Source of the DNA: Variovorax paradoxus
Lineage (GTDB): Bacteria > Pseudomonadota > Gammaproteobacteria > Burkholderiales > Burkholderiaceae_C
NCBI RefSeq assembly: GCF_029919115.1
Contig: NZ_CP123990.1
Coordinates: forward strand, 5,358,501 to 5,422,500
DNA length: 64,000 bases
Direction of reading: 5' to 3'
Position 1 is the first letter of the stretch. Each line of letters begins with the position of its first letter. Shown here piece by piece: positions 3,766 through 58,354 of the stretch. The notes beneath the pieces are model-generated. The model had not been told where the DNA came from. It saw nothing but the letters and a program-made list of their open reading frames with translations, and did not search any database. Made by a program: the position numbers and the translations under genes.

Positions 3766-6700
3766 GGCTTCGCTCCCTGGAAGTCCATGACCTGGCGCCA
3801 ATTCAGGCGCCCGGCCACTTGCGAAACGTTGCCGCCCTCCACCGGCTGCACGGTGGAGATGCCGGTTCCAGGCGAACCGCCGCGCAAACCGACGTTGACC
3901 ACCGAGAGCTTCTTTGTTGCAGACCGGCGTCCGAACGCATCGGGTGAGGCATAGGCTGCTTCGCCGAGCTCAGCCAGCAATGGCGACGACAACGGACCCA
4001 CCGTCGAAGGTACGCAGGTCCCGCCCTTCGAAAGCCCTGTCATCGCGTTGACCGCGCAGCTGCGGCCGCCTGCGCTGGCGCCGCATGCATCGCCACCAGG
4101 GATCAATGTGTTGAAGAACAGATAACCATCGGCAAGCGTCAGCCGGGTTACTTGCCGCTCGCCCGATTCGAGCGATCCGGGAAGATCGAAATACCAGCCA
4201 CGGCGGCTTGCCGCACTGCCGTTGCCCGCGCCGTAGACGAAGGGCTCGCCCACAATGGCCGGCAACGCTCGTCCGGTAGCAGCGGCGGCGGTGCGCGGCT
4301 GAAGCTGGGTGCGAGTTTCGTGCGGCGGAATGGCGGTGCCGGAGTCGTACACGCCGTAGAGCGTTTGCACGGCACGGCTGGCGCTGCCGATGTCTTCTGC
4401 GCTTACGAATTTTCCGGTGCCGAACAGCACGATCGCGCCCCCGTTCGGCCCTGCTCCCACCTCGGGCGCCACGGTGATGGCTTGCCGCTTGGCATTCGCG
4501 CCGGGCGACATCGCGACCATGAGCGGCAACCCTTTCAAGCCGAGTGCGTTGTCCTCGTTCCACGGCGCGCGGCCGGTGAAGTCGAACTTCCAAAGGTTGC
4601 CTTGCGTGTCGCCGGCGTACAGCCAGCGCACCCATCCGTCCGCAGCCGCGTAGTCGCCCGGCGTGCCGAGGGCGTTCACCATGGTCTTGTCTGCCGGAAC
4701 CGGCAGCACGATCTTGTAATAGTTGACACCGCGCCTCCAGGCAGCGCCAGCGGCCTTGTCGAGCGAGAGCAGGAACAGCGCCCCGCGCCTGTCCGGATCG
4801 GCGTTGTTGAAGCCCGATGGAACCACGGCGAACCAGGCGTAGGCGGCAGCCTCGGTACGTGTTGCCGGGGCAATGCGGAACTTCATGATGCGCGGAGCCT
4901 GGAGCACGTGGCCCATGTCCTCGTCGTCGAGCCCCGTGAACTCCCACAGCGCCTTGTCAGCCGAAAACGCAGCGGGGTCCGAGACATCGAGTGCAAATAC
5001 GCCGGTTGCGCCAGCACCCATTCCGGAAACCAGCACGGTCTTCCAGGTGCCGTCGGCCATCCGCGCCTCTGCTGCGGCAGGCGACCCGTCGGCATAGGCC
5101 TGGTGCACGTAGCCGGGCGAGGTGTAGGCCCCGAGCTTTGCGAACACCGCGCGTGGAACATAGGCGAAGAGTTCGCTTCCGGTGGCGGCCGAAAACGCAT
5201 GCAGCATGCCGTCGTTCGCGCCGACATAGACGGCGGCTGAACGCGCTTTGTGTGTTTCGACAAATCGGGAGTAATCGTCGCCTTGCGCCTGGGAGCTCGG
5301 CGCGCCGACGAACAGCGGATTCGAATTGGCAACGTCTCCCATGACCGAGTCGCGCACGCGGAACACTCCGCCGGGCGCCGACAATTCCTTGCGCCGGTCA
5401 CCGCGCAAATATGCGAGCCGGTCGACACCCAGTGCATCGGATGCCGCGGGCACCGCGTAGGGCGTGGAGTTCAGATGGCTTCGCAGGACACTGTCGAGTG
5501 CGTCCCAACGAAAGGGCGTGCCGCTGCCGGCCGACGAAAGAGTGACGATGTTCCGGTTGGAAGGATCGCGTGCCGCAACTGGCGGCTGAGCCGATGCGCT
5601 GCCGGTCAACAAGGCCCCTGCGTCCCAGGCCGGCTCGTCGGCCTGGTGCACACCGCCCGAGGCCGCGTTGTAGGCCAGCGGATACGACAGCAGCGTGCCG
5701 GACCACCGGCGTCCGCTGAACCGCGCCAAATAAAGACTGCTCCCGCCCTGCGCAATGCGGTCCGACGAAATGGCAGCGTCCGCCGTGCGCCCTCCTGGCG
5801 GTGCCGCTGCCGACTCGAAGATCCGGTGGATTGCATCGACCAATTGCCGCGGCTCACCCGCCAGGAAATAGTTGGACGGCCTGGGCTGGCCGTCGTCGTC
5901 GATGCCTTCGGCCCATTCGGAATTGTCCGCCACGTCGGACTGGCCAATGCCGACCGAGGCTCTGAATGGGTTGCCGTCTGCGTTGCTGTCGGCAAAGCCT
6001 CCGTACTTCGAGGCGAGATAAAGGGCGCTGCCGCGCTGGGCTTGCCGGGTGGCCCCCTGCCCACCCGCATCCAGGTCGATGCCGAAGGTCTGGACCCGCA
6101 CGTCGGGATAGTCTGGACGAATCTTCTGCGTATTCGCCCAATAGGCCAGCCCGGCCATGCCGAACGAACCCTTGTCGGCGCCTGTTTCCGCACTTGCGAT
6201 GGTGCTTGCCGTCAGTTGCGCCCCGCCCTTGTAGTTGAAGGCTGGAAGGCCGCGGTTTCCGGTCGTTGCAAGACCGGCTTTTCCCGAAGGGTGGGCATAG
6301 GACAGCGACTCGCGGTTTTCGAACGCGCCCACCAGGCGGGTCCAGTAGGAAGTGTCCGGCTCGAACGACGCGTTGCTGAAGCTGCGGCCGCCGCCCGGCA
6401 GCCCGGGCAAGGAACGATCGCCGTGCGTTTCGAGATCTCCGATTGCCAGGATGTAGTTCTGGCGGCAGCTCGCACCCACGGGATCCCAAGCCTTGTGTCC
6501 GTCGGTGCGCCATTGCGCGGTGTCGTTGTAGACCGGCAGCCCGTCCTTTCTCGGGTCGTCGACGGCGCCTACACCCGCTATTGCGTCCCGCGTGGGCACT
6601 TTTCCTTGCAGGTAGCGAAGCGACTCGTAGTAGAGCTCGCCGGCAGGGTCAAACTTCTTGTAGGCGCCGGCGTGCCCGAACCGGTTCAGGTAGTTGACGA

Positions 6701-43174: not shown

Positions 43175-43519
43175 TTAGTGCGAAATCATCCACGGCCGCT
43201 TCGAAGGCGCCGACTTGGCGCCGTTGGGCGCCGTCATTGTCGCGCTGCGCTTCGATGAGGCCGAGCAGCATCCGCAGCCCGCCGGGTGCTTGAAGCGCGC
43301 GTAGTCGCGCGAGCTGCCCGGCTCATGCCGCGCACGCTCGTTGGTCTCCATGGCGCGGCGCGTACCCGATGCCATCAGCGCGAGCCGCGGGGCGGCCGAA
43401 AGCACGCGCCGCGATGCGCATCCGCAGTCCGGGCACCCGGCAGGCTCGTCGCGTTGGCCCGAAGGCCGCAGCGCCTCGAATCCGCCGCACTGGCCGCAGG
43501 CATAGTCGTAGGTAGGCAT
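43175..43519 (-). CDS. fmdB: FmdB-type zinc ribbon protein
   Basis: 114 residues. The N-terminal zinc ribbon starts MPTYDYACGQCGG and continues 'CPDCG' (two CxxC pairs), the FmdB/regulatory-ribbon family. The C-terminal half is basic and has a 'CGCC' motif. FmdB proteins accompany formamidase operons in Methylophilus and relatives, where a regulatory role was proposed but not proven. It starts 8 bases after the fmdA stop and ends the operon. Confidence 0.88.
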   Translation of the reverse strand: MPTYDYACGQCGGFEALRPSGQRDEPAGCPDCGCASRRVLSAAPRLALMASGTRRAMETNERARHEPGSSRDYARFKHPAGCGCCSASSKRSATMTAPNGAKSAPSKRPWMISH

Positions 43520-43527: not shown

Positions 43528-44760
43528 TCAGACCAGGTCGTGCGAGAGCGGCATGTCGATGCTGCCGTCGATCATCTTCACCGGACCCGCCGCATTCGGG
43601 TTGATGTCGAAGTCGAAGATCTGCGTAGGCAGCCACAGCGTGGCGCAAGAGTTGGGCACGTCGACCACGCCGCTGATGTGTCCCTGCACGGGCGCGGTGC
43701 CCAGGATCGAATACGCCTGCGCCCCCGAGTAGCCGAACTTCTTCAGGTACTCGATGGCGTTCAGGCAAGCCTGCCGGTAGGCCACGTTCACGTCCAGGTA
43801 GTACTGCTTGCCGGCCTCGTCGACGGAGATGCCCTCGAAGATGAGATAGTCGTTGTACTGCGGCGTGATCACGCTCGGCTTGAAGATCGGGTTCTTGATG
43901 CCGTACTTGGCCATGCCGCCCTTGATGAGCGTGACCTTCATGTGCACCCAGCCAGCCATTTCGATGGCGCCGCAAAACGTGATCTCGCCGTCGCCCTGGC
44001 TGAAGTGCAGGTCGCCCACACTGAGGCCCGCACCGTCCACATACACGGGGAAGAAGACCTTGGAGCCACGCGACAAATCCTTGATGTCGCAGTTGCCGCC
44101 GTGCTCGCGCGGTGGCACAGTGCGCGCGCCTTCGGCCGCGGCCTTGGCACGGGCATCGCCTGTCATCTTGCCCATGTGCGCGGTGCCTGCGAACGGCGGG
44201 TTGGCAAGGCCGGGCACGCGGTCAGGGTCGGTGGCAATGAGCTTGCCTTCGCGCTCGTTCCACATGTCGAGCATGGGCTTGTCGGGCAGGCAGCCGATCA
44301 GGCCGGGATGGATGAGGCCCGCAAAGTTGACGCCGGGCACATGGCGTGAGCTGGTGAACATGCCCTTGAAGTCCCAGATGGATTTCTGCGCTTCGGGAAA
44401 ATGATCGGTCAGAAAGCCGCCACCGTTCTTCTTCGAGAAAAATCCGTTGAAGCCCCAGAGGCTGTCCTGCTTGGCACCAATGTCGAGCAGGTCGACCACC
44501 AGCAGGTCGCCGGGCTCGGCGCCCTTCACGCCCACGGGGCCCGAAAGGTAGTGCACGGTGCTCAGGTCGATGTCGCGCACGTCGTCGGCGCTGTCGTTGT
44601 TCTTGATGAAGCCGCCGGTCCAGTCGAAGGTCTCAAGAATGAAATCGTCACCCGGGTTGACCCAGCAGGCCATCGGAATGTCCGGGTGCCAGCGGTTGTG
44701 GATCATCTCGTTCTCGGTGGGCGGCTTGGTCAGGTCGACCTTGATCAGCGTGTCCGTCAT
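43528..44760 (-). CDS. fmdA: Formamidase
   Basis: 410 residues of the FmdA/AmdA acetamidase-formamidase family. It hydrolyses formamide, and more slowly other short amides, to ammonia and the acid. Family blocks: 'MIHNRWHPDIPMACWVNPG' near the N-terminus, 'HYLSGPVGVKGAEPGDLLVVDLLDIG', 'PPREHGGNCDIKDLSRGS' and 'GDGEITFCGAIEMAG' (all split across the chain). The size matches FmdA of Methylophilus. It lies 23 bases after urtE, so uptake and hydrolysis are in one operon. Confidence 0.95.
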   Translation of the reverse strand: MTDTLIKVDLTKPPTENEMIHNRWHPDIPMACWVNPGDDFILETFDWTGGFIKNNDSADDVRDIDLSTVHYLSGPVGVKGAEPGDLLVVDLLDIGAKQDSLWGFNGFFSKKNGGGFLTDHFPEAQKSIWDFKGMFTSSRHVPGVNFAGLIHPGLIGCLPDKPMLDMWNEREGKLIATDPDRVPGLANPPFAGTAHMGKMTGDARAKAAAEGARTVPPREHGGNCDIKDLSRGSKVFFPVYVDGAGLSVGDLHFSQGDGEITFCGAIEMAGWVHMKVTLIKGGMAKYGIKNPIFKPSVITPQYNDYLIFEGISVDEAGKQYYLDVNVAYRQACLNAIEYLKKFGYSGAQAYSILGTAPVQGHISGVVDVPNSCATLWLPTQIFDFDINPNAAGPVKMIDGSIDMPLSHDLV

Positions 44761-44783: not shown

Positions 44784-45485
44784 TTAAACAGAGAGATATG
44801 CCTTGATGTGGTCCACATCGGTCTTGTCGCGCGCGGTCTCATGCACAAGCCGCCCGCCCTCGATCACGAAGAGCCGGTCGGCCACGTCCATCGCAAAGCT
44901 CAGCACCTGTTCGGACACCACAATGGTGATTCCGCGCAGCTTGCGAATTTCGTTGAGGGCCTTGGCAATGTCCTTGATGATCGAAGGCTGGATACCCTCT
45001 GTGGGCTCGTCGAGCAGCAAGACCTTGGGGTCGGTAACGAGGGCGCGCGCAATGGCAAGCTGCTGTTGCTGGCCGCCGGAGAGGTTGCCGCCCTTGCGGC
45101 GCTTCATGTCCCACAGCACGGGGAACAGCGCGTAGATTTCTTCTGGGATGCGCTTTGTCTTCGAGTTCTCGAGACCGGTCTGGATGTTCTCTTCCACCGT
45201 GAGGGTCGGAAAGATCATGCGACCCTGCGGCACGTAGGCAATGCCCTTGGCCACGCGCTTGAAGCTTTCGTCGCGCGACACGTCCTGCCCCGCCACTTCG
45301 ATGCGCCCACTCTTCAGTGGCAGCACACCCATGAGGCTCTTGAACAGCGTGGTCTTGCCCATGCCGTTGCGGCCCATGATGGCTATTGTTTCGTTGGCAT
45401 GGCCTTCGAAGGAGATGCCGTGCAGGGCTTCGCTCTGGCCGTAGGCTGCGTGCAGGTCATCGACCTTCAGCATGATGTTGCTCAT
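44784..45485 (-). CDS. urtE: Urea/amide ABC transporter ATP-binding protein UrtE
   Basis: LivF-type ATPase of 233 residues. Walker A is 'GRNGMGKTT', the signature is 'NLSGGQQQQ', and Walker B is 'VLLLDEPTEG'; 'AAYGQSEALHGISF' is the family N-terminus. It pairs with UrtD as the second nucleotide-binding subunit. Between it and urtD is a 232-base gap filled with repeats, unlike the close spacing elsewhere in the operon. Confidence 0.95.
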   Translation of the reverse strand: MSNIMLKVDDLHAAYGQSEALHGISFEGHANETIAIMGRNGMGKTTLFKSLMGVLPLKSGRIEVAGQDVSRDESFKRVAKGIAYVPQGRMIFPTLTVEENIQTGLENSKTKRIPEEIYALFPVLWDMKRRKGGNLSGGQQQQLAIARALVTDPKVLLLDEPTEGIQPSIIKDIAKALNEIRKLRGITIVVSEQVLSFAMDVADRLFVIEGGRLVHETARDKTDVDHIKAYLSV

Positions 45486-45717: not shown

Positions 45718-46461
45718 TCAGTGCCCCAGATAAACGTCGATGACCTTCGGATCCGCCTGCACCTTCTCCATCGGCCCCTCGGCCAGGATCTTTCCCTGGT
45801 GCATCACCGTCACCTTGTGCGCAATCTGCTTCACGAACGCCATGTCGTGCTCGATGACGATCACCGCGCGGTTCTGGCAAATTCGCTTGAGCAGGTCGGC
45901 CGTGAGTTCGCGCTCTCTCGCGCTCATGCCTGCAATGGGCTCGTCGAGCATCAGCAACTCGGGCTCCTGCATCAGCAGCATGCCGATCTCCAGCCACTGC
46001 TTCTGCCCGTGACTGAGCAGGCCCGCTTCCGTGCGAAGCTTGTCGGCCAGGCCGATATCCTCGGCCACCGCTTGTACCTTGGCCTTGACCTCGTCGTCGC
46101 ATTTGAAGGCCAGCGCACCGAGCACGGAACGCCCCTTCGGAAAAGACACTTCCAGGTTCTGGAAGACGCTCAGGTTCTCGTAGATCGATGGTGTCTGGAA
46201 CTTGCGCCCGATGCCCAGCCGCACGCGCTTGTGCTCCGCCATTTTTGTGAGCTCGGTATTCTTGAACTTGATGCTGCCGCCGCTTGCCCGCGTTTTGCCG
46301 CAGATCAGGTCGAGCAGCGTCGTCTTGCCGGCGCCATTGGGGCCGATGATCACGCGCAGTTCGTTCTTGTCGATGTAGAGCGTCAGGTCGTCGATGGCCT
46401 TGAAGCCGTCGAAGGAGACGGTGAGGTCTTCCACGGCGAGCGCGAAGTCGGTGTTGCTCAT
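45718..46461 (-). CDS. urtD: Urea/amide ABC transporter ATP-binding protein UrtD
   Basis: LivG-type ATPase of 247 residues. Walker A is 'IGPNGAGKTTLLDLI', the signature is recognisable in 'LSHGQKQWLEIGM' (LSHGQ, typical of this subfamily), and Walker B is 'ELLMLDEPIAGM'. The C-terminal part has the BCA-type extension ending 'VIDVYLGH'. It follows urtC by 16 bases. Confidence 0.95.
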   Translation of the reverse strand: MSNTDFALAVEDLTVSFDGFKAIDDLTLYIDKNELRVIIGPNGAGKTTLLDLICGKTRASGGSIKFKNTELTKMAEHKRVRLGIGRKFQTPSIYENLSVFQNLEVSFPKGRSVLGALAFKCDDEVKAKVQAVAEDIGLADKLRTEAGLLSHGQKQWLEIGMLLMQEPELLMLDEPIAGMSARERELTADLLKRICQNRAVIVIEHDMAFVKQIAHKVTVMHQGKILAEGPMEKVQADPKVIDVYLGH

Positions 46462-46477: not shown

Positions 46478-47671
46478 TCAGGCGCGTTGGCTGCCGATGC
46501 CGTCCGGCAATGCGGGTTCGGTCTGTGGTGCGGGAGATTGCGCAGCTACGGTTGCGGCTGGCGGCTTTACTGCGGCCTCGCGCAGTGCCTGGCGGCGGCC
46601 CTTCCACCAGGGCCTGATCTTTTCGTCCCACAGGCCCGCCAGGCCCATCGGGAACGCCATCGTCACGCCGATGAAGAGCCCGGCCATCAGGAACAGCCAC
46701 AGGTCCGGAAAGCTCTCGGAGAACAGCGTCTTGCCCGCATTCACCAGCAATGCGCCGTACACCGCGCCCACCAGGCTCATGCGGCCGCCGACTGCGCAGA
46801 AGATCACCATCTCGATGGAAGGCACGATGCCCACGAAGCTCGGCGACATGAAGCCCACCTGCAACGCGAACATTGCACCGCCAATGCCCGAGAGGCCGGC
46901 CGCAAGGCAGAAGATGAAGACCTTGAAGTTCGACACGTCGTAGCCCGAGAAGCGCACGCGGTCTTCCTTGTCGCGCATGGCGAGCAGCAGCGTGCCGAGC
47001 TTGCTGGTCTGGATCCAGCGGCACAGCACGATGCTCGCGACCAGAAGGCCGACGCACACGTAGTAGAGGATGTACTTGGCGCCGTCGGTGCGCGTGTCCC
47101 AGCCCAGCATCGTCTTCAGGTCGGTCATGCCGTTGACGCCGCCCGTGTAGCCCTGCTGGCCGATGATGAGCACGGTGCAGATCAGCGCCACCGCCTGGGT
47201 GATGATGGCAAAGTACACGCCGCCCACGCGGCGCTTGAACATCGCAAAGCTCACGAGCCACGCCAGCGCCATCGGCGCCAGCACCACCAGCGCCAGGCTC
47301 AGCGGCAAGCTCTTGAACGGCAGCCACAGCACGGGCAGTTCGGTGATCTGGTTCCAATCCATGAAGTCCGGAATACCCGGCGTCGACTGGATCTTGGTCG
47401 TGATGGGGTCAGAGGCTTCAAGCTTCAGAAACATCGCCATCGCATAGCCGCCGATGCCGAAGAACACGCCCTGCCCCAGGCTGAGCACGCCGCCGTAGCC
47501 CCACACCATCACAAGGCCAACGGCGACGAAGGCGTAGGTGAGGTACTTGCCCACCAGGTTCAGGCGAAAGATGTCGAGCGACAGCGGCAGCACCACCGCC
47601 AGCAGCAACACCAGCAGCAAGAGGCTGCCCAGCTGGTAGCGCAGGATCGAGGCCTTGATGAAATTCATCAT
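46478..47671 (-). CDS. urtC: Urea/amide ABC transporter permease UrtC
   Basis: LivM-type permease of 397 residues with about ten membrane spans. The sequence 'LSLGQGVFFGIGGYAMAMFL' and 'GLSGIGGAMFALQVGFMSP' are conserved in UrtC. The C-terminal 35 residues after the last helix are rich in Ala and Pro and variable. It lies 31 bases after urtB and 16 before urtD. Confidence 0.95.
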   Translation of the reverse strand: MMNFIKASILRYQLGSLLLLVLLLAVVLPLSLDIFRLNLVGKYLTYAFVAVGLVMVWGYGGVLSLGQGVFFGIGGYAMAMFLKLEASDPITTKIQSTPGIPDFMDWNQITELPVLWLPFKSLPLSLALVVLAPMALAWLVSFAMFKRRVGGVYFAIITQAVALICTVLIIGQQGYTGGVNGMTDLKTMLGWDTRTDGAKYILYYVCVGLLVASIVLCRWIQTSKLGTLLLAMRDKEDRVRFSGYDVSNFKVFIFCLAAGLSGIGGAMFALQVGFMSPSFVGIVPSIEMVIFCAVGGRMSLVGAVYGALLVNAGKTLFSESFPDLWLFLMAGLFIGVTMAFPMGLAGLWDEKIRPWWKGRRQALREAAVKPPAATVAAQSPAPQTEPALPDGIGSQRA

Positions 47672-47702: not shown

Positions 47703-48617
47703 TCAACGACGCACCTTCACGGCAAAGAGCCCTTGAGGACGCATCATCAGAATCAGCACGATCAGCGACAGCGTCAGCACCTTGGCCATCGAGCCGGTCA
47801 TGAAAAATTCCGAGATCGATTGCGTCTGCGCAATGCCGAAGGCGGAAACCACCGTGCCCAACAGGCTGGCGGCGCCGCCGAAAGTGACGACCAGGAAGGC
47901 ATCGACGATGTAGAGCGAGCCCGAGGTCGGCCCCGTCGAGCCGATGGTGGTGAAGGCCGCACCGGCCATGCCCGCAATGCCGCAGCCGATGGCGAAGGTC
48001 AGGCGGTCGGTCTTCGTGGTGTCGATGCCGGTCGCATTGGCCATGGTGCGGTTGGCCACGGTGGCGCGCACGCGCAGGCCCCAGCGGCTCTTGTGCAGCG
48101 CGACGAGCACACCGCCCGTGACCAGCGCGGTGAGCGCCAGCACGAAGAGGCCGTTGATCGGAATGTCGAGGCCTTCATGCGGCGTCCACGAACCCATGAG
48201 CCATTCAGGGAGCGTGGGGCTCACTTCCTTCGGGCCAATGAAGGTGCGAAAGAGCTGCTGCAGCCCCAGGCTCACGCCCCAGGTGGCCAGGAGCGTGTCG
48301 AGCGGCCGCTTGTACAGGTGCCGAATCAGCACCCATTCCACGATCCATCCGACGATGAAGGCGAACACGAAGGCCAGGCCGATGGCGATCGGAAAGTAGT
48401 ACGGCATGAAAGCCGGCGCCAGGCTTTCGGTGACGCGTGCGGCCAGGTAGATCGAATAGGCGCCGATGGTCATGAACTCGCCATGCGCCATGTTGATGAC
48501 GCCCATCTGGCCGAAGATGATCGCGAGCCCCAGGCCCATGAGCAGGAGCACCGCAAAGAGGCTCAGCCCCGCGAAGCCCTGCATGAGGCCGATGTTCATC
48601 ATGTCCGACAGAGTCAT
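47703..48617 (-). CDS. urtB: Urea/amide ABC transporter permease UrtB
   Basis: LivH-type permease of 304 residues with about eight spans. Typical blocks are 'LGLAIIFGQMGVINMAHGEF' and 'RATVANRTMANATGIDT'. This is the short form: it lacks the signal and long periplasmic N-terminal domain that other UrtB proteins carry. The ATG at 48617 (MTLSDMMNIG) is chosen. The longer reading runs into the inverted repeats of the urtA-urtB gap. Confidence 0.94.
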   Translation of the reverse strand: MTLSDMMNIGLMQGFAGLSLFAVLLLMGLGLAIIFGQMGVINMAHGEFMTIGAYSIYLAARVTESLAPAFMPYYFPIAIGLAFVFAFIVGWIVEWVLIRHLYKRPLDTLLATWGVSLGLQQLFRTFIGPKEVSPTLPEWLMGSWTPHEGLDIPINGLFVLALTALVTGGVLVALHKSRWGLRVRATVANRTMANATGIDTTKTDRLTFAIGCGIAGMAGAAFTTIGSTGPTSGSLYIVDAFLVVTFGGAASLLGTVVSAFGIAQTQSISEFFMTGSMAKVLTLSLIVLILMMRPQGLFAVKVRR

Positions 48618-48645
48618 GGAAGATTCCTGTGTTGGCTGCTGGCTC

Positions 48646-48743
48646 CTTCCCCTCCCGGGGGAAGGTCGGGATGGGGGCAGGCAGGGCGTGCCCATTGGCA
48701 GCGCCGCTTGCCCCCACCCCTGCCCTCCCCCAGCGGGGGAGGG
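48646..48743. repeat. Pair of GC-rich palindromes between urtA and urtB
   Basis: Two hairpins lie close together: one around CCTTCCCCTCCCGGGGGAAGG (in two halves, 48646-48665), the other CCCTCCCCC-AGC-GGGGGAGGG (48724-48743). A 'GGATGGGGGCA' stretch beside the first can pair with 'TGCCCCCACCCC' before the second, so the whole 98 bases form one larger inverted structure. It resembles intergenic REP-type sequences of this bacterial family. It may cut the amount of permease message relative to the binding-protein message. Confidence 0.7.
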
Positions 48744-48760: not shown

Positions 48761-50026
48761 TTACTGATAGCCCTTCGGAAACGGATCCGGCTTGATCAGC
48801 TCGCTCGACTCCGCCACCACCTTGAACGTCCCATCCAGCTGCCCCTGACCGATGCGCGCCTTGCTCCACAGGTGGTGGTTCGCATCCAGCTTCACGTAGC
48901 CTTCGGGTGCGGTCTTCAGCTCGATGCCGGGCGAGCCCGCAACCACCTTGTCCACGTCGAAGCTGCCGGCCTTCTCGACTGCCGCCTTCCAGAGCCACGG
49001 GCCCAGGTAGCCAGCCTGCGTGACGTCGCCGATCACCGCGTCCTTGCCGTACTTGCCCTTGAAGGCCTCCACGAACTTCTTGTTGTTCGGGTTGTCGAGC
49101 GACTGGAAGTACTTCATCGACGAATAGAAGCCCGCGAAGTTTTCGCCGCCCACGCCGGTCATCTCGTCTTCGGTCACGGCCAGCGTCAGCAGAAACTGCT
49201 TGTCGCCCGTGATGCCAGCGGCCTTGAGCTGCTTGTAGAAGGCCACGTTCGAGCCGCCCACCACGGCGGCAAAAATGCAGTCGGGCTTGGCCACCTTGAT
49301 CTTGTTGATCAGCGAGTTGAAGTTGGTGTGGCCCAGCGGGTAGTACTCCTCGCCCTTGACCGAACCCTTCTGGAAGTTCTCGATGTGCTTGCGCGCGATC
49401 TTCATCGAGGTGCGCGGCCAGATGTAGTCGGAGCCGACGAGGAAGAAGGTCTTGGCCTTCTTCTCCTTCGCGCCCCAGTCCAGGCCCCAGATGATCTGCT
49501 GCGTGGCTTCCTGGCCCGTGTAGATCACGTTCTTGCTCTGCTCCAGACCTTCGTAGAAGGTCGGGTAGTACAAGAGGCCGTTCTCTTTTTCGAACACCGG
49601 CAGCACGGCCTTGCGCGAGGCGCTGGTCCAGCAGCCGAACACCGCGGCGCAATGGTCGTTGACCAACAGCTTCTTCGACTTCTCGGCAAAGGTCGGCCAG
49701 TCGGAGGCGCCGTCTTCCTTGATTACCTTGATCTTGCGGCCCAGGATGCCGCCCATCGCGTTGATCTGGTCGATGGCCAGCTGCTCGGCCTGGATCGAGC
49801 CGGTTTCCGAAATGGCCATGGTGCCCGACGACGAGTGCAGTTGCCCCACCGTCACTTCGGTGTCGGTCACCGCGAGCTTGGTGGTGTTGACCTTGGCCGT
49901 GGGGAACTGCGACTGGCCGAAGCTCAGGCCGCTCAGGCCCATCACGGGCAGCGCGGCGGCGCCCTGCAGCAAACGGCGGCGACGCAATGCCAGGGCATCG
50001 AGAGAAAGATCGGAATCACGCGACAT
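48761..50026 (-). CDS. urtA: Urea/short-amide ABC transporter substrate-binding protein
   Basis: 421 residues. A twin-arginine-like signal (RRRRLLQGAAALPVMGL) precedes the binding fold. Conserved features of UrtA/FmdD are 'TEVTVGQLHSSSGTMAISE', 'VFGCWTSASRKAVLPVFE' and 'LLYYPTFYEGLEQSKN' (the last two in separate places). The start at 50026 is preferred because GGAG lies upstream and the longer reading adds no conserved sequence. It is the first gene of the operon, whose promoter should lie in the 251-base gap shared with the divergent sensor gene. Urea or formamide is the likely ligand. Confidence 0.93.
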   Translation of the reverse strand: MSRDSDLSLDALALRRRRLLQGAAALPVMGLSGLSFGQSQFPTAKVNTTKLAVTDTEVTVGQLHSSSGTMAISETGSIQAEQLAIDQINAMGGILGRKIKVIKEDGASDWPTFAEKSKKLLVNDHCAAVFGCWTSASRKAVLPVFEKENGLLYYPTFYEGLEQSKNVIYTGQEATQQIIWGLDWGAKEKKAKTFFLVGSDYIWPRTSMKIARKHIENFQKGSVKGEEYYPLGHTNFNSLINKIKVAKPDCIFAAVVGGSNVAFYKQLKAAGITGDKQFLLTLAVTEDEMTGVGGENFAGFYSSMKYFQSLDNPNNKKFVEAFKGKYGKDAVIGDVTQAGYLGPWLWKAAVEKAGSFDVDKVVAGSPGIELKTAPEGYVKLDANHHLWSKARIGQGQLDGTFKVVAESSELIKPDPFPKGYQ

Positions 50027-50277
50027 CAGGAACTCCAGGCGGGTTGAAAGAAAGAGTTGACCGCGCACCATCGCAGTGCATCGGACGGTGCCCCGAGCAC
50101 CATGGCTGGTACTTTAGAAATCACTTGCGCCGCCGCGAATACGTCATTCAACGTAGCGCCTGCAACCGCCCTGGCCCGCAGACTCGCAAGCCGTGCACAG
50201 GGCCGAAAAGCACGCAGGGAGCGCTTCTTGCTCTGCTGCCATCCATGCCGCCTACGCCCTTGCCGCAAGACCCCACC
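50027..50277. other. Divergent intergenic region, urt operon versus sensor kinase
   Basis: 251 bases between the urtA and sensor start codons; it must hold promoters for both. I could not identify a clear sigma-70 or sigma-54 promoter, riboswitch or palindrome. A GGGAG run (50218) lies too far from the kinase ATG to be its ribosome site. One in-frame ATG at 50245 is an alternative kinase start. Confidence 0.5.
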
Positions 50278-53200
50278 ATGCAACCCGTCACCGGCCAGAA
50301 GATCTTTCGCATCCGCCGCGACTACAACGCGTGGGTCGCGAACGAAACGCTGGAGGACTACGCGCTGCGCTACACGCCGCGCAGCTTTCGCAAGTGGTCG
50401 GAGTTCCGCGTGGCCAACGCGGCGTTCGGTGCCACCTCGTTCCTGGCGCTGGAAGCCATTGGCGGCGCCATTGCGCTGAACTACGGCTTCTCGAACGCGC
50501 TGTGGGCCATCCTGGTGGTGGGGCTCATCACCTTCCTCACCGGCCTGCCGATTTCCTACTACGCGGCCAAGCACGGCGTAGACATGGACCTGCTCACGCG
50601 CGGCGCGGGCTTCGGCTACCTGGGCTCCACCCTCACCTCGCTCATCTACGCGAGCTTCACCTTCATCTTCTTCGCGCTCGAAGCGGCCATCCTCGCGCTG
50701 GCGCTGCAGCTGTACATCGATTGGCCGCTGCCGCTGCTCTACCTGCTCTCGTCGATCGTGATCGTGCCGCTGGTGATGCGCGGCATCACCCTCATTTCGG
50801 GCCTGCAGTTGTGGACGCAGCCGATCTGGATCGTGCTGTTCATCTGCCCCTTTGTTGCGGTGCTGGTGAAAAAGCCCGAGCTGTATGCCGACTTCACCGG
50901 CCTGGTGGGCCGCACCTCCGACAGCAGCGGCTTCGACCCGCTGATGTTCGGCGCCGCCGCCACCGTGGCGTTCTCGCTGGTGGTGCAGATCGGCGAGCAG
51001 GTCGACTACCTGCGCTTCTTGCCCGAGAAAACCGCCGCCAACCGGGGCCGCTGGTGGGCCGCGGTGCTGGTTTCGGGGCCGGGCTGGATCGTGCCGGGCA
51101 TGCTCAAGATGATGGGCGGCGCCTTCCTGGCCTTTCTGGCGCTGCAGCACGAGATTCCGGGCAAGCACGCGATCGAGCCCACGTTGATGTACCTCACGGG
51201 CTTTTCCTACGTGCTGCGCGACCCGGCCTGGGTGCTGGCGATCACCACGCTCTTCGTGGTGGTGTCGCAGATGAAGATCAACCTCACCAATGCCTATGCG
51301 GGCTCGCTGGCGTGGTCCAACTTCTTTGCGCGGCTCACGCACAGCCACCCGGGCCGCGTGGTGTGGCTGGTTTTCAACGTGGTCATCGCCATCTTGCTGA
51401 TGACGCTGGGGGTGTTCGCGGCGCTCGAGCACGTGCTGGGCTTCTACAGCAACATCGCCATCGCCTGGGTCGGCGCGCTGGTGGCCGACCTTGTCATCAA
51501 CAAGCCGCTGGGCTGGAGCCCGCGCACCATCGAGTTCAAGCGCGCGCACCTGTACGACATCAACCCCGTCGGGCTGTGCGCAATGCTGGTGGCGGCTGCG
51601 CTTGCCATGCTGGCCTACTCCGGCGTGCTGGGGCAGTGGGCGCGGGCGTTCTCGCCGTTCATCGCGCTCGTCACGGCGTTGGCCGTTTCACCGCTGCTCG
51701 CGTGGCGCACGCGCGGGCGCTATTACCTGGCGCGCACCGACATCCAGCGCTGGACGCCGGGGCAGATGGTGAAGTGCTCGGTGTGCGACAACAGCTTCGA
51801 ATCGGAAGACATGGCGCACTGCCCGGCCTACAGTGCGCCGATCTGCTCGCTGTGCTGCACGCTCGAATCGCGCTGCCACGATCGCTGCAAGACCGACTCG
51901 CGCGCTGCCGAGCAGATGAGCGGCTGGCTCAAGGCGCTGCTGCCGCCGGCTCTTTCGGCCCGGCTCAATTTTCGGGTGGCGCACTACCTGATGGTGGCAA
52001 CCTCGCTGGTGGCGCTGCTGGCCACGGTGATGGGCGTGGTGTATGCGCAAGAAACCATTACGGGCTCCGATGCCATGGACCCTGCCTTGCGCAGCGCCTT
52101 TCTCAAGGTGTTCGCGCTGCTCTCGCTGGTGGCTGCGGTGGCCGCGTGGTGGATTGTGCTGGGCAGCGAGAGCCGGCAAATGGCGCAGGAAGAATCGAAC
52201 CGCCACAACCACCTGCTCACCGTCGAGATCGAGGCGCACCGGCGCACCGATGCCGCCCTTCAAACCGCCAAGGAAGCCGCCGAGGCCGCCAACCAGGCCA
52301 AGACCCGCTACGTGGCCGGCATGACGCACGAGCTGCGAACGCCGCTGAACAGCATCCTCGGCTACTCGCAAATCCTGCTCAAGGGCGAGGCCGTGGCGCC
52401 GCCGCGCGAAGCAGTGCAGACCATTCAGCGCAGCGGCGAGCACATGCTCGGCCTGATCGACGGGCTGCTCGACCTGGCACGCATCGAGGCCGGCCGCCTG
52501 CAGCTCGAGCCCGCGCCGCTTGCGCTGCCCGCCTTCCTGGACGAGGTGGTGCACATGGTGCGGCCTCAGGCCGAGAACAAGGGCCTTGCCTTCGTGTACA
52601 CCCACAGCGGCCGGCTGCCGCCCTGGGTGCATGCCGATGCCAAGCGGCTGCGGCAGATTCTCATCAACCTGCTGGCCAACGCGGTGCGCTTTACCGACAG
52701 CGGCACCGTCACGCTGCATGTGGATGCACGGCGCGAAGTGCTGCGCTTCGACGTGGTCGACACCGGCATCGGCGTGGCGCCGCAGGACCACCAGCGCATT
52801 TTCCTGCCGTTCGAACGCGGGGCCGCGGGACGCCGGCGCGGCGAGCCGGGCACGGGCCTTGGCCTCACCATCACCGGCCTTCTCACCTCGCTGATGGGTG
52901 GCGAGCTCGCCCTGGCTGCCACCTCGCCCGCGGGCAGCACCTTCAGCGTACGGGTGTACCTGCGCGAGGTGGCCGACCCCGGCCCGCAGGCGAAGGCCGG
53001 CGCATTGCGGCGGCTGGTGTCGGGCTACATCGGCGAGCGCCGCACGCTGCTGGTGGTCGACGACCAGCCGGTGCAGCGCCAGATGCTGGCCGGCATGCTG
53101 GTGCCGCTCGGCTTCGAGGTGCGCGAGGCCGCGAGCGGCACCGAATGCCTCGACAGCCTGCGCGAAAACCTGCCCAGCGCGATTCTCCTGGACCTCACCA

Positions 53201-53670
53201 TGGACGACATGGACGGCTGGCAGACCGCGACACTGGTGCGCGCCTCGGGCTTCGACCGCATTCCGATCATCATCGTCTCGGCCAACATGTTCGAGAACCA
53301 GAGCGAGCTGCTGCGCGCTGCAGGCTGCCAGGCGTTCGTGGGCAAGCCGGTCATCGAATCGGAGCTGATTGCCACGCTGGAGCGCCACCTCGGACTCGAA
53401 TGGCTGGCGCTCAACGATGCCATCCCACCCACCGTCGACGTCTCGGTGCGGCCCGATCAGCTGGCGCTTTCCGAAGACGACCGCGCCGAGCTGATGCGGC
53501 TGGTGCAGATGGGCCACGTGCGCGGCCTGCACCAGGTGCTCGACCGGCTTGCCGCGGCATCTCCGCCGGCCGCCGTGACCTGCACGTGGCTGCGCGGCAT
53601 GGTCACGCGTTTCGATCTCGACAATCTCCGCAAGGCACTCGCAGAAGATGCAGACACTCTCGCCCCCTGA
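50278..53670 (+). CDS. NCS1 permease-histidine kinase-receiver fusion (transporter-type sensor)
   Basis: 1130 residues. Residues about 15-480 form a whole NCS1 nucleobase/allantoin-type permease with some 12 spans, beginning 'IRRDYNAWVANETLEDYALRY' (split around the W). Then comes an eight-cysteine cluster (C500, C503, C515, C523, C526, C527, C533, C537), likely zinc-binding. Two further spans (about 560-580 and 600-625) and a coiled coil follow. The kinase has H684 in 'MTHELRTPLNS', an N-box 'INLLANAVRF' and a G-box 'GTGLGLTI'. The C-terminal receiver has D928/D929 and phospho-acceptor D972. The last 23 bases overlap the response regulator. Diverges from urt-fmd, its probable target. Start could be ATG 50245. 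Confidence 0.93.
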   Translation: MQPVTGQKIFRIRRDYNAWVANETLEDYALRYTPRSFRKWSEFRVANAAFGATSFLALEAIGGAIALNYGFSNALWAILVVGLITFLTGLPISYYAAKHGVDMDLLTRGAGFGYLGSTLTSLIYASFTFIFFALEAAILALALQLYIDWPLPLLYLLSSIVIVPLVMRGITLISGLQLWTQPIWIVLFICPFVAVLVKKPELYADFTGLVGRTSDSSGFDPLMFGAAATVAFSLVVQIGEQVDYLRFLPEKTAANRGRWWAAVLVSGPGWIVPGMLKMMGGAFLAFLALQHEIPGKHAIEPTLMYLTGFSYVLRDPAWVLAITTLFVVVSQMKINLTNAYAGSLAWSNFFARLTHSHPGRVVWLVFNVVIAILLMTLGVFAALEHVLGFYSNIAIAWVGALVADLVINKPLGWSPRTIEFKRAHLYDINPVGLCAMLVAAALAMLAYSGVLGQWARAFSPFIALVTALAVSPLLAWRTRGRYYLARTDIQRWTPGQMVKCSVCDNSFESEDMAHCPAYSAPICSLCCTLESRCHDRCKTDSRAAEQMSGWLKALLPPALSARLNFRVAHYLMVATSLVALLATVMGVVYAQETITGSDAMDPALRSAFLKVFALLSLVAAVAAWWIVLGSESRQMAQEESNRHNHLLTVEIEAHRRTDAALQTAKEAAEAANQAKTRYVAGMTHELRTPLNSILGYSQILLKGEAVAPPREAVQTIQRSGEHMLGLIDGLLDLARIEAGRLQLEPAPLALPAFLDEVVHMVRPQAENKGLAFVYTHSGRLPPWVHADAKRLRQILINLLANAVRFTDSGTVTLHVDARREVLRFDVVDTGIGVAPQDHQRIFLPFERGAAGRRRGEPGTGLGLTITGLLTSLMGGELALAATSPAGSTFSVRVYLREVADPGPQAKAGALRRLVSGYIGERRTLLVVDDQPVQRQMLAGMLVPLGFEVREAASGTECLDSLRENLPSAILLDLTMDDMDGWQTATLVRASGFDRIPIIIVSANMFENQSELLRAAGCQAFVGKPVIESELIATLERHLGLEWLALNDAIPPTVDVSVRPDQLALSEDDRAELMRLVQMGHVRGLHQVLDRLAAASPPAAVTCTWLRGMVTRFDLDNLRKALAEDADTLAP

Positions 53671-54553
53671 GACCGAACGCCCCGTGGTGCTGGTGGTGGA
53701 CGACGCACCCAGCAGCCTCGGCATGCTGTGCGACACGCTCGAATCGAGCGGCTACACCGTGCTGGTTGCCGCCGACGGCGAGGCCGCGCTGCAGCGCCTT
53801 GAACTGGTGGTGCCCGACGCGATCCTCCTCGACGGGCTGATGCCCGGCCTCTCGGGCTTCGAGACCTGCCGGCGCATCAAGGCCAATGCGGCGCTCGCGC
53901 ACATTCCCGTGCTGTTCATGACGGGGCTTTCGGAAACGGCACACGTGGTCGAAGGCTTCGAGTGCGGCGGCGTCGACTACGTGGTGAAACCCATTCGCGC
54001 ACAGGAAGTGCTCGCGCGGCTGCACACGCACACGCGCAACGCACGCATCACGCGCATGGCACGCGACGCTGTGGACGTGGCCGGCATGGGCGTGGTTTTT
54101 GTGGATGCGCATGGGCGCATCGCATGGCGTTCTCCGCAAGCCGCGCTGTGGCTGCACGCCATGGATGCGGCGCCCTCGGCCGGCCTGCTGCCCGCGTCAT
54201 TGGAGCCTGTGCTCGCGCGAGGCGCCGCCATGGCCCTGACGACAGCTGCAGGCACGCGGCTCTCGGTGCGCAACCTCGGCGCTGCTGCGCTCGGCGAAAC
54301 CATGCTGCTTTTTGCGGTGCAGCGCGAAAGTGCGGCCGGCATTTCTTCGGCACGGCTCGCCGAAGCGGCGCTGACGCCGCGAGAGACGGAGGTGCTGTCT
54401 TGGCTTGCCAAAGGCAAGACCAACCGCGACATCGGCGAAATCCTCGGCACCAGCCCACGCACGGTCAACAAGCACCTGGAGCACATCTTCGAGAAGCTCG
54501 GCGTGGAGACGCGCGCAGCCGCGGCAGCGTTGGCGAGCGGGCAGCTCGCTTGA
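53648..54553 (+). CDS. LuxR-family response regulator with central PAS-like domain
   Basis: 301 residues. The receiver domain (about 10-130) has D18/D19, the phospho-acceptor D62 in 'ILLDGLMPG', and the Lys in 'VVKPI'. A middle segment (about 145-225) has the feel of a PAS domain ('GMGVVFVDAHGRIAWRSPQA' in part). The C-terminal LuxR HTH is 'LTPRETEVLSWLAKGKTNRDIG' (shown in part) through 'TVNKHLEHIFEKLGV'. It starts 23 bases inside the kinase gene, so the pair is coupled and it is the expected phosphate receiver. Confidence 0.92.
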   Translation: MQTLSPPETERPVVLVVDDAPSSLGMLCDTLESSGYTVLVAADGEAALQRLELVVPDAILLDGLMPGLSGFETCRRIKANAALAHIPVLFMTGLSETAHVVEGFECGGVDYVVKPIRAQEVLARLHTHTRNARITRMARDAVDVAGMGVVFVDAHGRIAWRSPQAALWLHAMDAAPSAGLLPASLEPVLARGAAMALTTAAGTRLSVRNLGAAALGETMLLFAVQRESAAGISSARLAEAALTPRETEVLSWLAKGKTNRDIGEILGTSPRTVNKHLEHIFEKLGVETRAAAAALASGQLA

Positions 54554-54600: not shown

Positions 54601-55050
54601 CTACCTCTTGGGCGCCGGCGTTGCGGGCACCGCAGGCGTCGTGGTGGTGCTACCCGACTTGGACGCCGGCACGGCAGGCGTTGCGGGCGTAGCCGATGTC
54701 GTCGATGACGTAGACGAAGAGGACTGCGGCGACGGCGTGGCCGGTGTCGCAGGCGTGGCCGGCGTGGTGGGTGTCGTGCCGGTGCCCGGAGTAGCCGGTG
54801 TTGCGGGTGTCGCCGGCGTTGCGGCATTGCCCGAAGCGTTGGAACCGCTGGTCGCGCCCGCGCCGTTGCCGTTCGCACCTGCGGCTGCGCCTACGCCGGC
54901 ACCGCCGCCGCTGCCGCTACCGCCGCCACCACCCGAACCTCCGCCGCCACCGCCTCCCCCGCCGCCGCCAGCGGCCAGGGCCAGGGGTGCAACGCAGGCG
55001 CCCATCAGAACGGCCACCAAGGCCGGTGCAACACGTTGTTTCAGCTTCAT
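54601..55050 (-). CDS. Small secreted Gly-rich/Thr-Pro-Ala repeat protein, unknown function
   Basis: 149 residues. A good Sec signal (MKLKQRVAPALVAVLMGA then PLALA) is followed by a run of about 40 residues made of Gly with Ser and Ala. After that come many ATP/PATP tripeptide repeats (PATPATPATP) separated by Ser/Thr stretches. No folded domain is visible. An AGGAG site precedes the ATG. Low-complexity sequence like this suggests a flexible envelope or extracellular protein; function unknown. The codon repeats make the gene prone to length change. Confidence 0.72.
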   Translation of the reverse strand: MKLKQRVAPALVAVLMGACVAPLALAAGGGGGGGGGGGSGGGGGSGSGGGAGVGAAAGANGNGAGATSGSNASGNAATPATPATPATPGTGTTPTTPATPATPATPSPQSSSSTSSTTSATPATPAVPASKSGSTTTTPAVPATPAPKR

Positions 55051-55254
55051 CGAACTCTCCTTGTTGATGTTTCGACAAGGCCAAGCTAGATGAGGCTGAA
55101 AACCAGGCTTGTAGTCCAAAGTCTTCATGGCGGGCCGGTCCAGTCGGTCGAAGTCTTTGCAAGCTCGCCCCGCCTCGGTACTTACCCCGAAGACGCTGAG
55201 GGCTGAATGACAGCCTTGCTGCCTACGATGGGCATGAACCACCCAGGAGACACC

Positions 55255-56073
55255 ATGAAGACACAGCCTTTCCCGTTGCATCGCCTTACGCGCCGAGCGG
55301 CGCTGCTGGCTACCGCGGCCGCACTTGCCGGATGCGGAAGCTTCGGCAAGCAGGCACCCGCCGGCGGCGACATCCACGTGATGACCTCCGGCGGCTTCAC
55401 TGCCGCATACAACGATTTGCGCCCCGGCTTCGAGCGCAGCAGCGGCTACACGGTCAAGACCGCCTATGGCGCCTCGATGGGCAACGCCGAAGATTCGATT
55501 CCTAGCCGCCTGTCGCGCAACGAACCGGCCGACGTGGTGATCCTTGCACGGCCGGCGCTCGACGCGCTGGTGGCGCAAGGCAAGGTGGTGCCGGGGAGCC
55601 AGGTCGACCTGGTGCGGTCGGCCATCGGCTTTGCGGTGCGCAAGGGCGCGCCCAAGCCCGACATCTCTACCGTCGACGCGCTCAAGCGCACGCTGGTGGC
55701 AGCGCCTTCCATCGCCTATTCGGCCAGCGCAAGCGGCACCTACTACGAGACCGAGTTGCTCAAGACCCTCGGCATCGAAGACCAGGTGAAGCCCAAGAGC
55801 AAGCGCATCTTGAGCGAGCGCGTGGGCACGGTGGTGGCGCGCGGCGACGCGGCGCTGGGGTTGCAGCAGGTAAGCGAGCTGCTGCCGATCGAAGGGATCG
55901 ACTACATCGGCCCCCTGCCCGCCGAAGTGCAGCGCAACACGGTGTTCTCCGCCGGCGTGGCGGCCGGATCGAAGCAGCCGGAAGGCGCGCGGCAGTTGAT
56001 CCGCTATCTCAACTCGCCGGCTGCGGCGCCTGCCATCGCGAAGACCGGGCTGGAGCCGCTCACGGCTCGCTGA
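55255..56073 (+). CDS. Extracellular substrate-binding lipoprotein, ModA/molybdate-like fold
   Basis: 272 residues. The N-terminus has twin arginines and a lipobox (TRRAALLATAAALAGC), so it is probably a Tat-exported lipoprotein. The periplasmic-binding fold type II contains 'IHVMTSGGFTAAYNDLRPGFE', split, and 'PADVVILARPALDALV', the pattern of the ModA-like family. No transporter genes are adjacent. Such orphan ModA-like proteins often bind organic acids rather than molybdate. AGGAGA precedes the ATG at 55255. Confidence 0.85.
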   Translation: MKTQPFPLHRLTRRAALLATAAALAGCGSFGKQAPAGGDIHVMTSGGFTAAYNDLRPGFERSSGYTVKTAYGASMGNAEDSIPSRLSRNEPADVVILARPALDALVAQGKVVPGSQVDLVRSAIGFAVRKGAPKPDISTVDALKRTLVAAPSIAYSASASGTYYETELLKTLGIEDQVKPKSKRILSERVGTVVARGDAALGLQQVSELLPIEGIDYIGPLPAEVQRNTVFSAGVAAGSKQPEGARQLIRYLNSPAAAPAIAKTGLEPLTAR

Positions 56074-56095: not shown

Positions 56096-58354
56096 CTAGC
56101 GCGATTCGATCAGCTCCTTCACGCGCCGCGCGAGCACGTCCATCTCGAAGGGCTTGGTCATCACGTGCATGCCGGGGTCCAGGTGGCCGTGGCTCAAGAC
56201 CGCATTCTCGGCATAGCCGGTGATGAACAGCACCTTGAGCCCCGGCCGCGCGGTGCGCGCCGCGTCGGCCACCTGCCGGCCGTTCATGCCGCCGGGCAAG
56301 CCCACGTCGCTCACCAGCAGGTCGATGCGCTGGCGCGGCGACTGCAATATGCGCAGCGCACCCGCGCCGTCGCCGGCCTCCAGCGTGGCGTAGCCCAGCC
56401 CGCGCATCACCTCGACAATGATCATTCGCAGTGCGGGCTCGTCGTCGACCACCAGCACCGTGTCTCCCTGGTGGGCGCGCGGCGCAAGCGGCGCCTCCAC
56501 CGGTTCGCTCGCCGCCTCTTCCTGCGCGTCGTGGCGCGGCAGGTAGATGCTCACCGAGGTGCCCGTGCCCGGCTCCGAATAAATGCGCACTTGCCCGCCC
56601 GACTGCTTGGCAAAGCCGTAGATCATCGAAAGCCCCAGGCCCGTGCCCATGCCGATGGGCTTGGTCGTGAAGAACGGGTCGAAGGCGCGCGCCACCACCT
56701 CGGACGTCATGCCCACGCCGTTGTCGCTCACGGTCAGCGACACGTATTGCCCCATGGGCATATCGCGCTCCTTGGCGGTACGCGCATCGACCCAGCGGTT
56801 GCCGGTTTCAATCACCAGCTTGCCGCCTTCGGGCATGGCGTCGCGCGCGTTGATGCACAGGTTGAGCAGCGCATTCTCCAGCTGGCTCGGATCGGCATGC
56901 ACATTCCACAGCCCCACTGCGGCCACGCGCTCCAGTTCGATTTCGGGGCCGAGCGTGCGTCGCAGCAGCTCTTCCATGTCCGACACCAGCCGATTGGCGT
57001 TGAGCGGCTTGGGCTCCAGCGTCTGGCGCCGCGAGAAGGCGAGCAACCGGTGCGTGAGCGCGGCCGCGCGCTTGACCGCGCCCTGGGCCACGCCGATGTA
57101 GCGCTCCAACTCGGCCGGCTGCCCGTCAATGGCACGCCGGCGCATCAACTCGAGGCTGCCGCTGATGGCCGCGAGCAGGTTGTTGAAGTCGTGTGCAAGC
57201 CCGCCCGTGAGCTGGCCCACGGCCTCGAGTTTCTGGCTTTGGCGCAACTGCTCGCGCGCGGACTCCAGCTCGGCCGCCCGCTCTTCGACCTGCCGCTCCA
57301 GCGATTCGGCAAAGGCCTGCAGTTCGATCTGTGCCTCGCGCCGCGCAATGGCCGAGCGCACCCGGTCGCCCGTCTCGCGCACAAAGTCGAGCTCGTCCTG
57401 CGTCCATTCGCGCACCTGCCCATGGTTGAGGTAGAGCAGCCCGACCAGCCCGCCGCGCTCGGTGAGTGGCATGTTGACCACTGCGCGGGCGGTAAGGGCC
57501 ACAAGCGCGTCGGCGTTGTCGCGGGTGCGCGGGTCGAGCCGTGCATCGGCAAAGGCCACGGTCGCGCCGCGCAGCAGGTCTTCGATGTAGGAACCGTAGT
57601 CGCGAAAACGCAGCAGGCCCGCGAGGCTGGCGACACCGGGCGCAGTCCAGTCGCGGTCGATCGATATTGTCTCGGCCGCCTTGTCCACCAGGCCGTAGCC
57701 CGCACGGTCCACGCCCAGGCGCTCGCCCAGCATCGCCGACGCAACGTAGGCGATCTCGGCGGGGGCATCGATGTCGCGGATGCGGTCGCCCAGCTCCATC
57801 AGCGCAAGCCGGCGGGACTCGGCCTCGCGGTAGGCTTCGTTCGCTGCCTGCAGCTGGGACTCGGCCACGCGCTTGGCGCGGCGGTCGGCGGCCTCCTTGA
57901 GCGCGCGGTCCAGCACCACCGGCAGTCGCGCAAGCCGCCCCTTGCTCACATAGTCGGTCGCGCCGCGCTTGAGAAGCTCGACGGCATTGTCCTCGCCGAT
58001 CACGCCCGAGACGAAGATGAAAGGCGTCTCGGGCGCCATGCGCCGAGCAATCTCCAGCGCCTCGGCACCCGAGAAGCCCGGCAGCTCGTAGTCGGACAGG
58101 ATGAGCGAAGGACTGCGCTCGGCAAGTGCCGCAACAAAGTCGCGTTCATCGCGCACCGCCCGCGTTTGGGCGTGGGGCAGCGCCGCCGAGAGGGCCTCGC
58201 CCAAAAGCTCCGCGTCGAAGCGCGAATCCTCGAGAATCAGCACGTCGATGACACCCGCCGACCCGGCAGCGGCGGCGCCCGTGGAATACACGGCACCCGC
58301 CATGTCGGCCATGACGTCCTCGTTAGGCCTGCTCGCGACGCTGCGGCTATTCAT
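56096..58354 (-). CDS. Hybrid sensor histidine kinase: receiver-GAF-kinase-receiver
   Basis: 752 residues. The N-terminal receiver (about 36-155) has its acceptor at D88 ('ILSDYELPG'). A GAF-like domain (about 190-340) and a coiled coil follow. The kinase dimerisation motif is 'GLAHDFNNLLAAI' with H388, and the ATP lid has 'GTGLGLSMIYG'. The C-terminal receiver has D683. It has no membrane span, so it is cytoplasmic. Its start overlaps the stop of the upstream response regulator by 8 bases; it is the last gene of the bphO-bphP operon. A phosphorelay partner of the phytochrome is likely. Confidence 0.9.
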   Translation of the reverse strand: MNSRSVASRPNEDVMADMAGAVYSTGAAAAGSAGVIDVLILEDSRFDAELLGEALSAALPHAQTRAVRDERDFVAALAERSPSLILSDYELPGFSGAEALEIARRMAPETPFIFVSGVIGEDNAVELLKRGATDYVSKGRLARLPVVLDRALKEAADRRAKRVAESQLQAANEAYREAESRRLALMELGDRIRDIDAPAEIAYVASAMLGERLGVDRAGYGLVDKAAETISIDRDWTAPGVASLAGLLRFRDYGSYIEDLLRGATVAFADARLDPRTRDNADALVALTARAVVNMPLTERGGLVGLLYLNHGQVREWTQDELDFVRETGDRVRSAIARREAQIELQAFAESLERQVEERAAELESAREQLRQSQKLEAVGQLTGGLAHDFNNLLAAISGSLELMRRRAIDGQPAELERYIGVAQGAVKRAAALTHRLLAFSRRQTLEPKPLNANRLVSDMEELLRRTLGPEIELERVAAVGLWNVHADPSQLENALLNLCINARDAMPEGGKLVIETGNRWVDARTAKERDMPMGQYVSLTVSDNGVGMTSEVVARAFDPFFTTKPIGMGTGLGLSMIYGFAKQSGGQVRIYSEPGTGTSVSIYLPRHDAQEEAASEPVEAPLAPRAHQGDTVLVVDDEPALRMIIVEVMRGLGYATLEAGDGAGALRILQSPRQRIDLLVSDVGLPGGMNGRQVADAARTARPGLKVLFITGYAENAVLSHGHLDPGMHVMTKPFEMDVLARRVKELIESR

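Follow-up and report, generated by a model that had tools for sequence, protein, structure and literature searches.

An NCS1-like permease fused to a histidine kinase beside urea and amide genes in Variovorax paradoxus and other Pseudomonadota: a candidate transceptor kinase

What does a permease-like domain detect when it is joined to a histidine kinase, and which genes does such a kinase control? The question is raised by a single gene of Variovorax paradoxus, located in a stretch of 64,000 nucleotides (the window; positions are counted from its first nucleotide).

Domain order of the fusion protein

The fusion gene, its domains and the gene that follows it are located as listed below.

50278..53670, plus strand: NCS1-like permease / histidine kinase / receiver fusion, an open ORF of 1130 aa
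50332..51723, plus strand: NCS1-like permease domain (residues 19–482)
51775..51888, plus strand: eight-Cys module, probably metal binding (residues 500–537; kept in 169/169 homologues)
51970..52191, plus strand: two long, probably membrane-spanning helices (residues 565–638; two structure models)
52297..52494, plus strand: HisKA (residues 674–739, Pfam)
52636..52962, plus strand: HATPase_c (residues 787–895, Pfam)
53050..53379, plus strand: receiver domain (residues 925–1034, Pfam)
53648..54553, plus strand: response regulator with receiver and GerE/LuxR-type DNA-binding domain, overlapping the kinase gene by 23 bases

An in-frame ATG at 49987 was rejected as the start, since the lengths and starts of homologues agree with 50278. 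The order given in a preliminary description of this DNA, with kinase and then receiver after the permease, is the one found by Pfam, and all features of a hybrid histidine kinase (HisKA, HATPase_c, receiver and H-box) are present. The H-box is THELRTP at residues 683–689, with the phospho-acceptor histidine at residue 684, and the strict H-box pattern is matched by 153 of 169 fused homologues. The neighbor that the description had named as response regulator shows both the overlap claimed for it and the NarL/FixJ-type (LuxR/GerE) architecture, as receiver and GerE domains are both detected by Pfam.

For the permease part, a complete NCS1 permease with 12 predicted spans had been proposed. The first 600 residues are empty in Pfam, with no match for the permease part even at E ≤ 10, PF02133 included. 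The NCBIfam cytosine-permease model NF008241 matches residues 26–445 with E 3.5e-7 and 29.3 bits, where the curated cut-off is 326, and a profile-profile comparison with a set of six NCS1 proteins gave 99.9% probability (E 1.3e-32). In the AlphaFold model (pLDDT 76.9, pTM 0.75) the helices agree with the 12-helix NCS1 fold, and the predicted permease domain has CodB and Mhp1 as its nearest structures; as SSS structures rank behind these two, NCS1 is the better fit. The NCS1 assignment therefore stands by fold and by profile, Pfam's own NCS1 model excepted, and we call the domain NCS1-like rather than a member of PF02133, because Pfam gave no match and the NF008241 score lies below its cut-off. 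Residues of the permease part are strongly conserved among homologues. As a hint only, the hydroxyls that we take to form the Na+ site of CodB pair with Gln/Met in an hhalign alignment.

The eight-Cys cluster of the preliminary description was located at residues 500–537. Its spacing, C-x2-C-x11-C-x6/7-C-x2-CC-x5-C-x3-C, is conserved in all 169 fused homologues that are 870 aa or longer, which makes the module the most constant part of the protein, and it would bind metal. A zinc-binding fold, as had been suggested for the linker, found some resemblance but no significant match: in a separate model of residues 480–650 (pLDDT 83.2, pTM 0.57), RING, C1, PHD and FYVE domains were among the Foldseek matches, the best with E 0.38. 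The linker region has no match in Pfam, a library that may or may not include a STAC model. Between this module and the kinase, AlphaFold places two helices with limits of about 565–595 and 598–638, absent from the earlier description; as this pair leads into the kinase, 14 membrane crossings are probable for the sensor part.

Gene neighborhood and distribution of the fusion

Divergently oriented to the fusion gene lie genes for urea uptake and formamide hydrolysis.

48761..50071, minus strand: urtA, urea ABC transporter binding protein (TIGR03407, 517.6 bits against a cut-off of 492.75)
47703..48695, minus strand: urtB (TIGR03409)
46478..47671, minus strand: urtC (TIGR03408)
45718..46461, minus strand: urtD (TIGR03411)
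44784..45485, minus strand: urtE (TIGR03410)
43528..44760, minus strand: fmdA, formamidase (NF045496, 767 bits against a cut-off of 500)
43178..43519, minus strand: FmdB-type zinc-ribbon protein (NF053663 and TIGR02605; the match covers residues 153–266 of the listed ORF)

UrtA, UrtB, UrtC, UrtD, UrtE and FmdA each exceed the NCBIfam cut-off, so that the name urt-fmd given earlier to the divergent operon can be kept. On the other side, a low-complexity ORF with Gly/Ser-rich stretches and Ala-Thr-Pro repeats (54601–55578, minus strand) lies immediately 3' of the regulator gene, and a solitary SBP_bac_11 (ModA-like) binding protein (55207–56073, plus strand) adjoins the system; a relative is also found close to the type A kinase at locus L080. 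A further hybrid kinase with the order receiver, GAF, kinase, receiver (56096–58354, minus strand) has no visible tie to the permease-kinase.

The fusion family occurs in Pseudomonadota. In a draw from the window's own family, 83 of 150 genomes matched the permease plus linker, with an open frame of 886 aa or more in all except G049, where the gene is interrupted (L065, 7989–12603: the permease part ends after 408 residues and homology restarts about 1.5 kb on). A phylum-wide draw gave matches in 61 of 398 genomes, 53 of them strong (E < 1e-14) and 8 weak, through stand-alone permeases; loci were fetched for 32 of the 45 strong matches that lay outside the window's family. In a scan of named genomes, the best 80 of 571 relatives included proteins from culturable bacteria related to Variovorax, Hydrogenophaga, Acidovorax, Methylophilus and Pseudomonas. 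The resulting 171 fused genes include near-duplicates (L042 equals L183 in the tree region); four fused genes are missing from automatic ORF lists (L070, L078, L156 and L215).

Homologues located always away from nitrogen-transport operons would have spoken against a role in nitrogen use, and the opposite was observed: urt, fmdA or ureC lies within 8.5 kb of 154 of the 171 fused genes, and of 136 of the 148 whose flanks reach at least 5 kb upstream and 3 kb downstream. Neither Urt nor FmdA nor UreC was detected near the other 17, including 12 with adequate flanks (L060, L067, L184, L185, L188, L191, L196, L198, L202, L223, L227 and L232). Many of these 12 belong to Zoogloea, Azonexus, Denitromonas or other genomes of Rhodocyclales type, and no nitrogen theme was seen among the neighbors in five unlinked loci inspected.

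FmdA is present in 35 of the 150 family genomes, all of which have a fusion match (p 1.6e-11; in one, G049, the kinase gene is the interrupted one), and it lies at most 6.4 kb from the fusion in 34; in the remaining genome the two are on separate contigs. UreC is present in 112 of the 150. An AmiS/UreI-type channel was found near the fusion at seven loci (L099, L068, L070, L078, L079, L150 and L152). L099 is the single type A locus (1/20) without urt. The six others have shorter fused kinases (879–931 aa where measured) with a formamidase adjoining and no match to a window-type regulator directly downstream; at L150 an OmpR-type regulator is located at 4933–5670. With urt, fmdA, ure and AmiS/UreI-type neighbors, several unrelated urea or small-amide modules thus adjoin these kinases. 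Nucleobases, hydantoin and allantoin, the substrates named in the preliminary description, are not what this gene context favors; it points to urea and short amides instead.

In a quick tree, from which most loci above L200 were left out, four stand-alone permeases fall apart from the 131 fused rows; the split has SH-aLRT 100 and comes with a long-branch warning. The fmdA-neighbor and urease-neighbor labels cluster on this tree: they need 11 and 10 changes, where shuffling gives means of 40.2 and 37.9. Downstream of a stand-alone permease relative of 497 aa (PF02133, E 3.6e-9) at L162 (7950–12329) lie a carbon-nitrogen hydrolase and a weak match of UrtA type; this permease may be an amide carrier close to the root of the fusion.

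An operator-like inverted repeat and its association with the kinase

Two short elements are located between urtA and the kinase gene.

50140..50155, no strand assigned: predicted operator of the regulator, TACGTCATTCAACGTA, a 7-2-7 inverted repeat (conserved-site comparison)
50217..50232, plus strand: weak sigma-54-like element before the kinase gene, GGGAGCGCTTCTTGCT (score 12.5 of 16.5)

Starting from k-mers common to 45 regions between urtA and kinase genes, the motif search gave TACGT-N6-ACGTA. The site at 50140–50155 is the sole exact occurrence in the genome of 5.81 Mb, with seven more at one mismatch; the pattern read in reverse has 104 sites. The divergent region contains the site at each of the 20 type A loci: the match is exact at 18 and has one mismatch at 2. 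Written as heptamers the window's site reads TACGTCA-N2-CAACGTA, and this 7-2-7 layout is that of NarL sites. Upstream of canonical urtA genes (less than 60% identity to the window's), the exact core TACG-N8-CGTA was found in 31 of 40 regions, against 0.125% of shuffles, and was absent from 9 of the 40 in this first set; where the kinase is urease-linked, the site is mostly TACGCCA-N2-NGGCGTA.

Across 173 loci (3.16 Mb, including those from which the motif was discovered) there are 105 TACG-N8-CGTA sites, of which 92 lie at the starts of urtA (74), kinase (9), fmdA (7) or ureC (2) genes. Control spacings of 6, 7, 9 and 10 gave 6–14 sites each, with 2 altogether so placed, and nine control palindromes gave 4–375 sites, with at most 9 at such gene starts. 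The regulator encoded at 53648–54553 would be the protein that binds TACG-N8-CGTA.

The presence of the site was compared with that of the kinase at orthologous urtA genes of the family draw (66–92% identity to the second UrtA of the window's genome). The site was found in 30 of 30 genomes with the fusion versus 2 of the 27 genomes that lack one (Fisher p 3.5e-14). Genomes with the fusion were a hand-picked 32 of the 83, of which G022, G023 and G052 had helped to find the motif, and G041 and G074 had a partial urtA without a locus; those without it were all 32 fusion-free genomes with ureC, 28 of them with a urtA match. The comparison took 57 of 60 loci, one being too short and two being paralogues with less than 60% identity. 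The two exceptions, with a site and no detected fusion, are a genome that is 65% complete and G062, a complete genome in which the operator-like site TACGCCATCCGGCGTA before urtA (L287) is unexplained.

Starred branches of the UrtA tree supply nine independent pairs in which one member has the kinase and the other lacks it; the site follows the kinase in 7–8 of them and shows the opposite in none (sign test p 0.008–0.016). This agreement across genomes and tree pairs argues that the site and the kinase/regulator were gained or lost together, and at the level of sequence a regulatory linkage of the fusion to urea/amide genes is well supported. The earlier claim that the permease-kinase switches on amide/urea use gains from a conserved operator-like site at urtA that tracks the kinase; as to direction, activation rather than repression is probable.

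A second fusion with its own regulator is present in the window's genome (L009, 6595–12243; about 2.698–2.704 Mb); its permease is 62% identical to the first, and its gene is divergent from the urease operon ureJ-ureC-ureE-ureG. The type B (urease-linked) pattern, which was derived from other genomes, matches this one exactly at a single position, 90 bp ahead of the second urtA. The urease-linked kinase lies about 216 kb from that position. The two regulators have different recognition helices (PRTVNKH in the window, PATAKKH in the paralogue), which would fit the change of half-site from TACGT to TACGC.

At urease-linked loci, high-score sigma-54-like sites face the ure genes in 40 of 66 cases and the kinase in 22 of 66 (shuffles about 0.5%), and a weaker element, GG-N10-GC with TTCTTGC, precedes the kinase in 16 of the 21 rows of type A. 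These sites suggest that the sensor is made under nitrogen limitation and that the ligand would then trigger the regulator.

Proposed mechanism, alternatives and related systems

Domain order, NCS1 fold, gene linkage and the operator-like site with its dependence on the kinase are established by comparison. In the reading that we prefer, to which we give a probability of roughly 0.78, the fusion is a urea/short-chain-amide transceptor kinase that activates the uptake of its own ligand. Nitrogen limitation would raise the level of the kinase. The NCS1-fold domain itself would bind urea or a small amide such as formamide or one of its relatives, as gene context suggests, either outside or in transit, and a conformational change would pass through the eight-Cys module and the pair of membrane helices and so reach the histidine kinase. 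The kinase would then pass phosphate to the built-in receiver and on to the LuxR/NarL-type regulator from the overlapping gene, and the phosphorylated regulator, on TACG-N8-CGTA at 50140–50155, would activate urtABCDE-fmdA. At type A loci the regulator would turn on import plus formamidase; the sister pair would act likewise on the second urea importer through TACGCCA-N2-NGGCGTA.

Urt genes close to many fusions, and a Cys module more constant than any other part, would also fit a kinase that regulates urt-fmd with its permease as a membrane adaptor only. The signal would then be liganded UrtA, a working Urt complex (flux) or a cytoplasmic cue through the Cys module, and sensing of transporter flux has been proposed for BceS-BceAB (PMC8534201). 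The kinase, fmdA and an AmiS-type channel stay together at L099 and in the short fusions, which have no Urt match, so Urt is not required, and residues of the permease part are highly conserved too; we consider the adaptor role unlikely. Still less probable is a different ligand, such as a nucleobase, hydantoin, allantoin or ammonium, with the urea/amide genes as part of general nitrogen scavenging. Known NCS1 carriers take nucleobases and related rings, and the sigma-54-like sites connect the genes to nitrogen limitation; against this, the genes nearby belong to several unrelated kinds and serve the uptake and hydrolysis of urea and amides. Least probable of all is a domain that is mainly a working urea/amide transporter whose turnover the kinase only reports, for which the complete NCS1-type fold and the transport and kinase activities both credited to CbrA (PMC7096432) would speak, and against which stand operator and co-occurrence data that make regulation a main task, with the Gln/Met opposite the CodB Na+-site hydroxyls as a hint.

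The preferred transceptor reading has partial precedents. The SLC5/STAC kinases CbrA, CrbS and RpuS likewise combine a transporter domain of LeuT-fold type, a linker and a histidine kinase, and the partner of CrbS is a LuxR-family regulator that requires an imperfect inverted repeat (PMC5715377). In contrast to these, the fusion described here has an NCS1 (CodB/Mhp1) fold, a linker of an eight-Cys module and two helices, and urea/amide genes as targets, rather than those for acetate, pyruvate or histidine. Ks-Amt5 also joins a nitrogen-compound transporter domain to a kinase, binds its substrate and signals (PMC8534201; PMC5764959), but its Amt domain is unrelated, its ligand is ammonium and the portions available describe no relation to urt, fmd or ure. 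CodB and Mhp1 are stand-alone carriers, whereas the fused domain lies outside Pfam PF02133. In Ectopseudomonas guguanensis G3, LuxR-family two-component genes lie beside a second urtABCDE (operon III), after which fmdA is next in locus-tag order (PMC13296017, 2026). These genes are probably the same system; the available part of that description mentions no permease domain, family, operator or sensing role.

The fusion proteins are public, several under the automatic name 'purine-cytosine permease-like', and an NCS1-kinase was not found in open-licence PMC literature, where the transporter-kinase fusions are SLC5/STAC and Ks-Amt5; the sequences are therefore known but, as far as found, the system is not. 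No kinase that acts as receptor for external urea or formamide is known to us from earlier descriptions, nor was one found in the same literature.

Bacterial urea use is a large share of nitrogen cycling, and the family supplies a candidate receptor, regulator, DNA site and target genes in culturable bacteria. We lean, if only somewhat, toward a history in which the NCS1 fold was recruited apparently once (on the basis of the single fused clade) as a kinase sensor for urea/short amides through an eight-Cys metal module, and in which duplication gave two insulated circuits (TACGTCA and TACGCCA), one per importer. As NCS1 would be the third transporter fold in kinase fusions after SLC5 and Amt, the step from transporter to receptor becomes comparable, and the duplicated pair with its diverged half-sites offers a natural test of the insulation of paralogous two-component systems.
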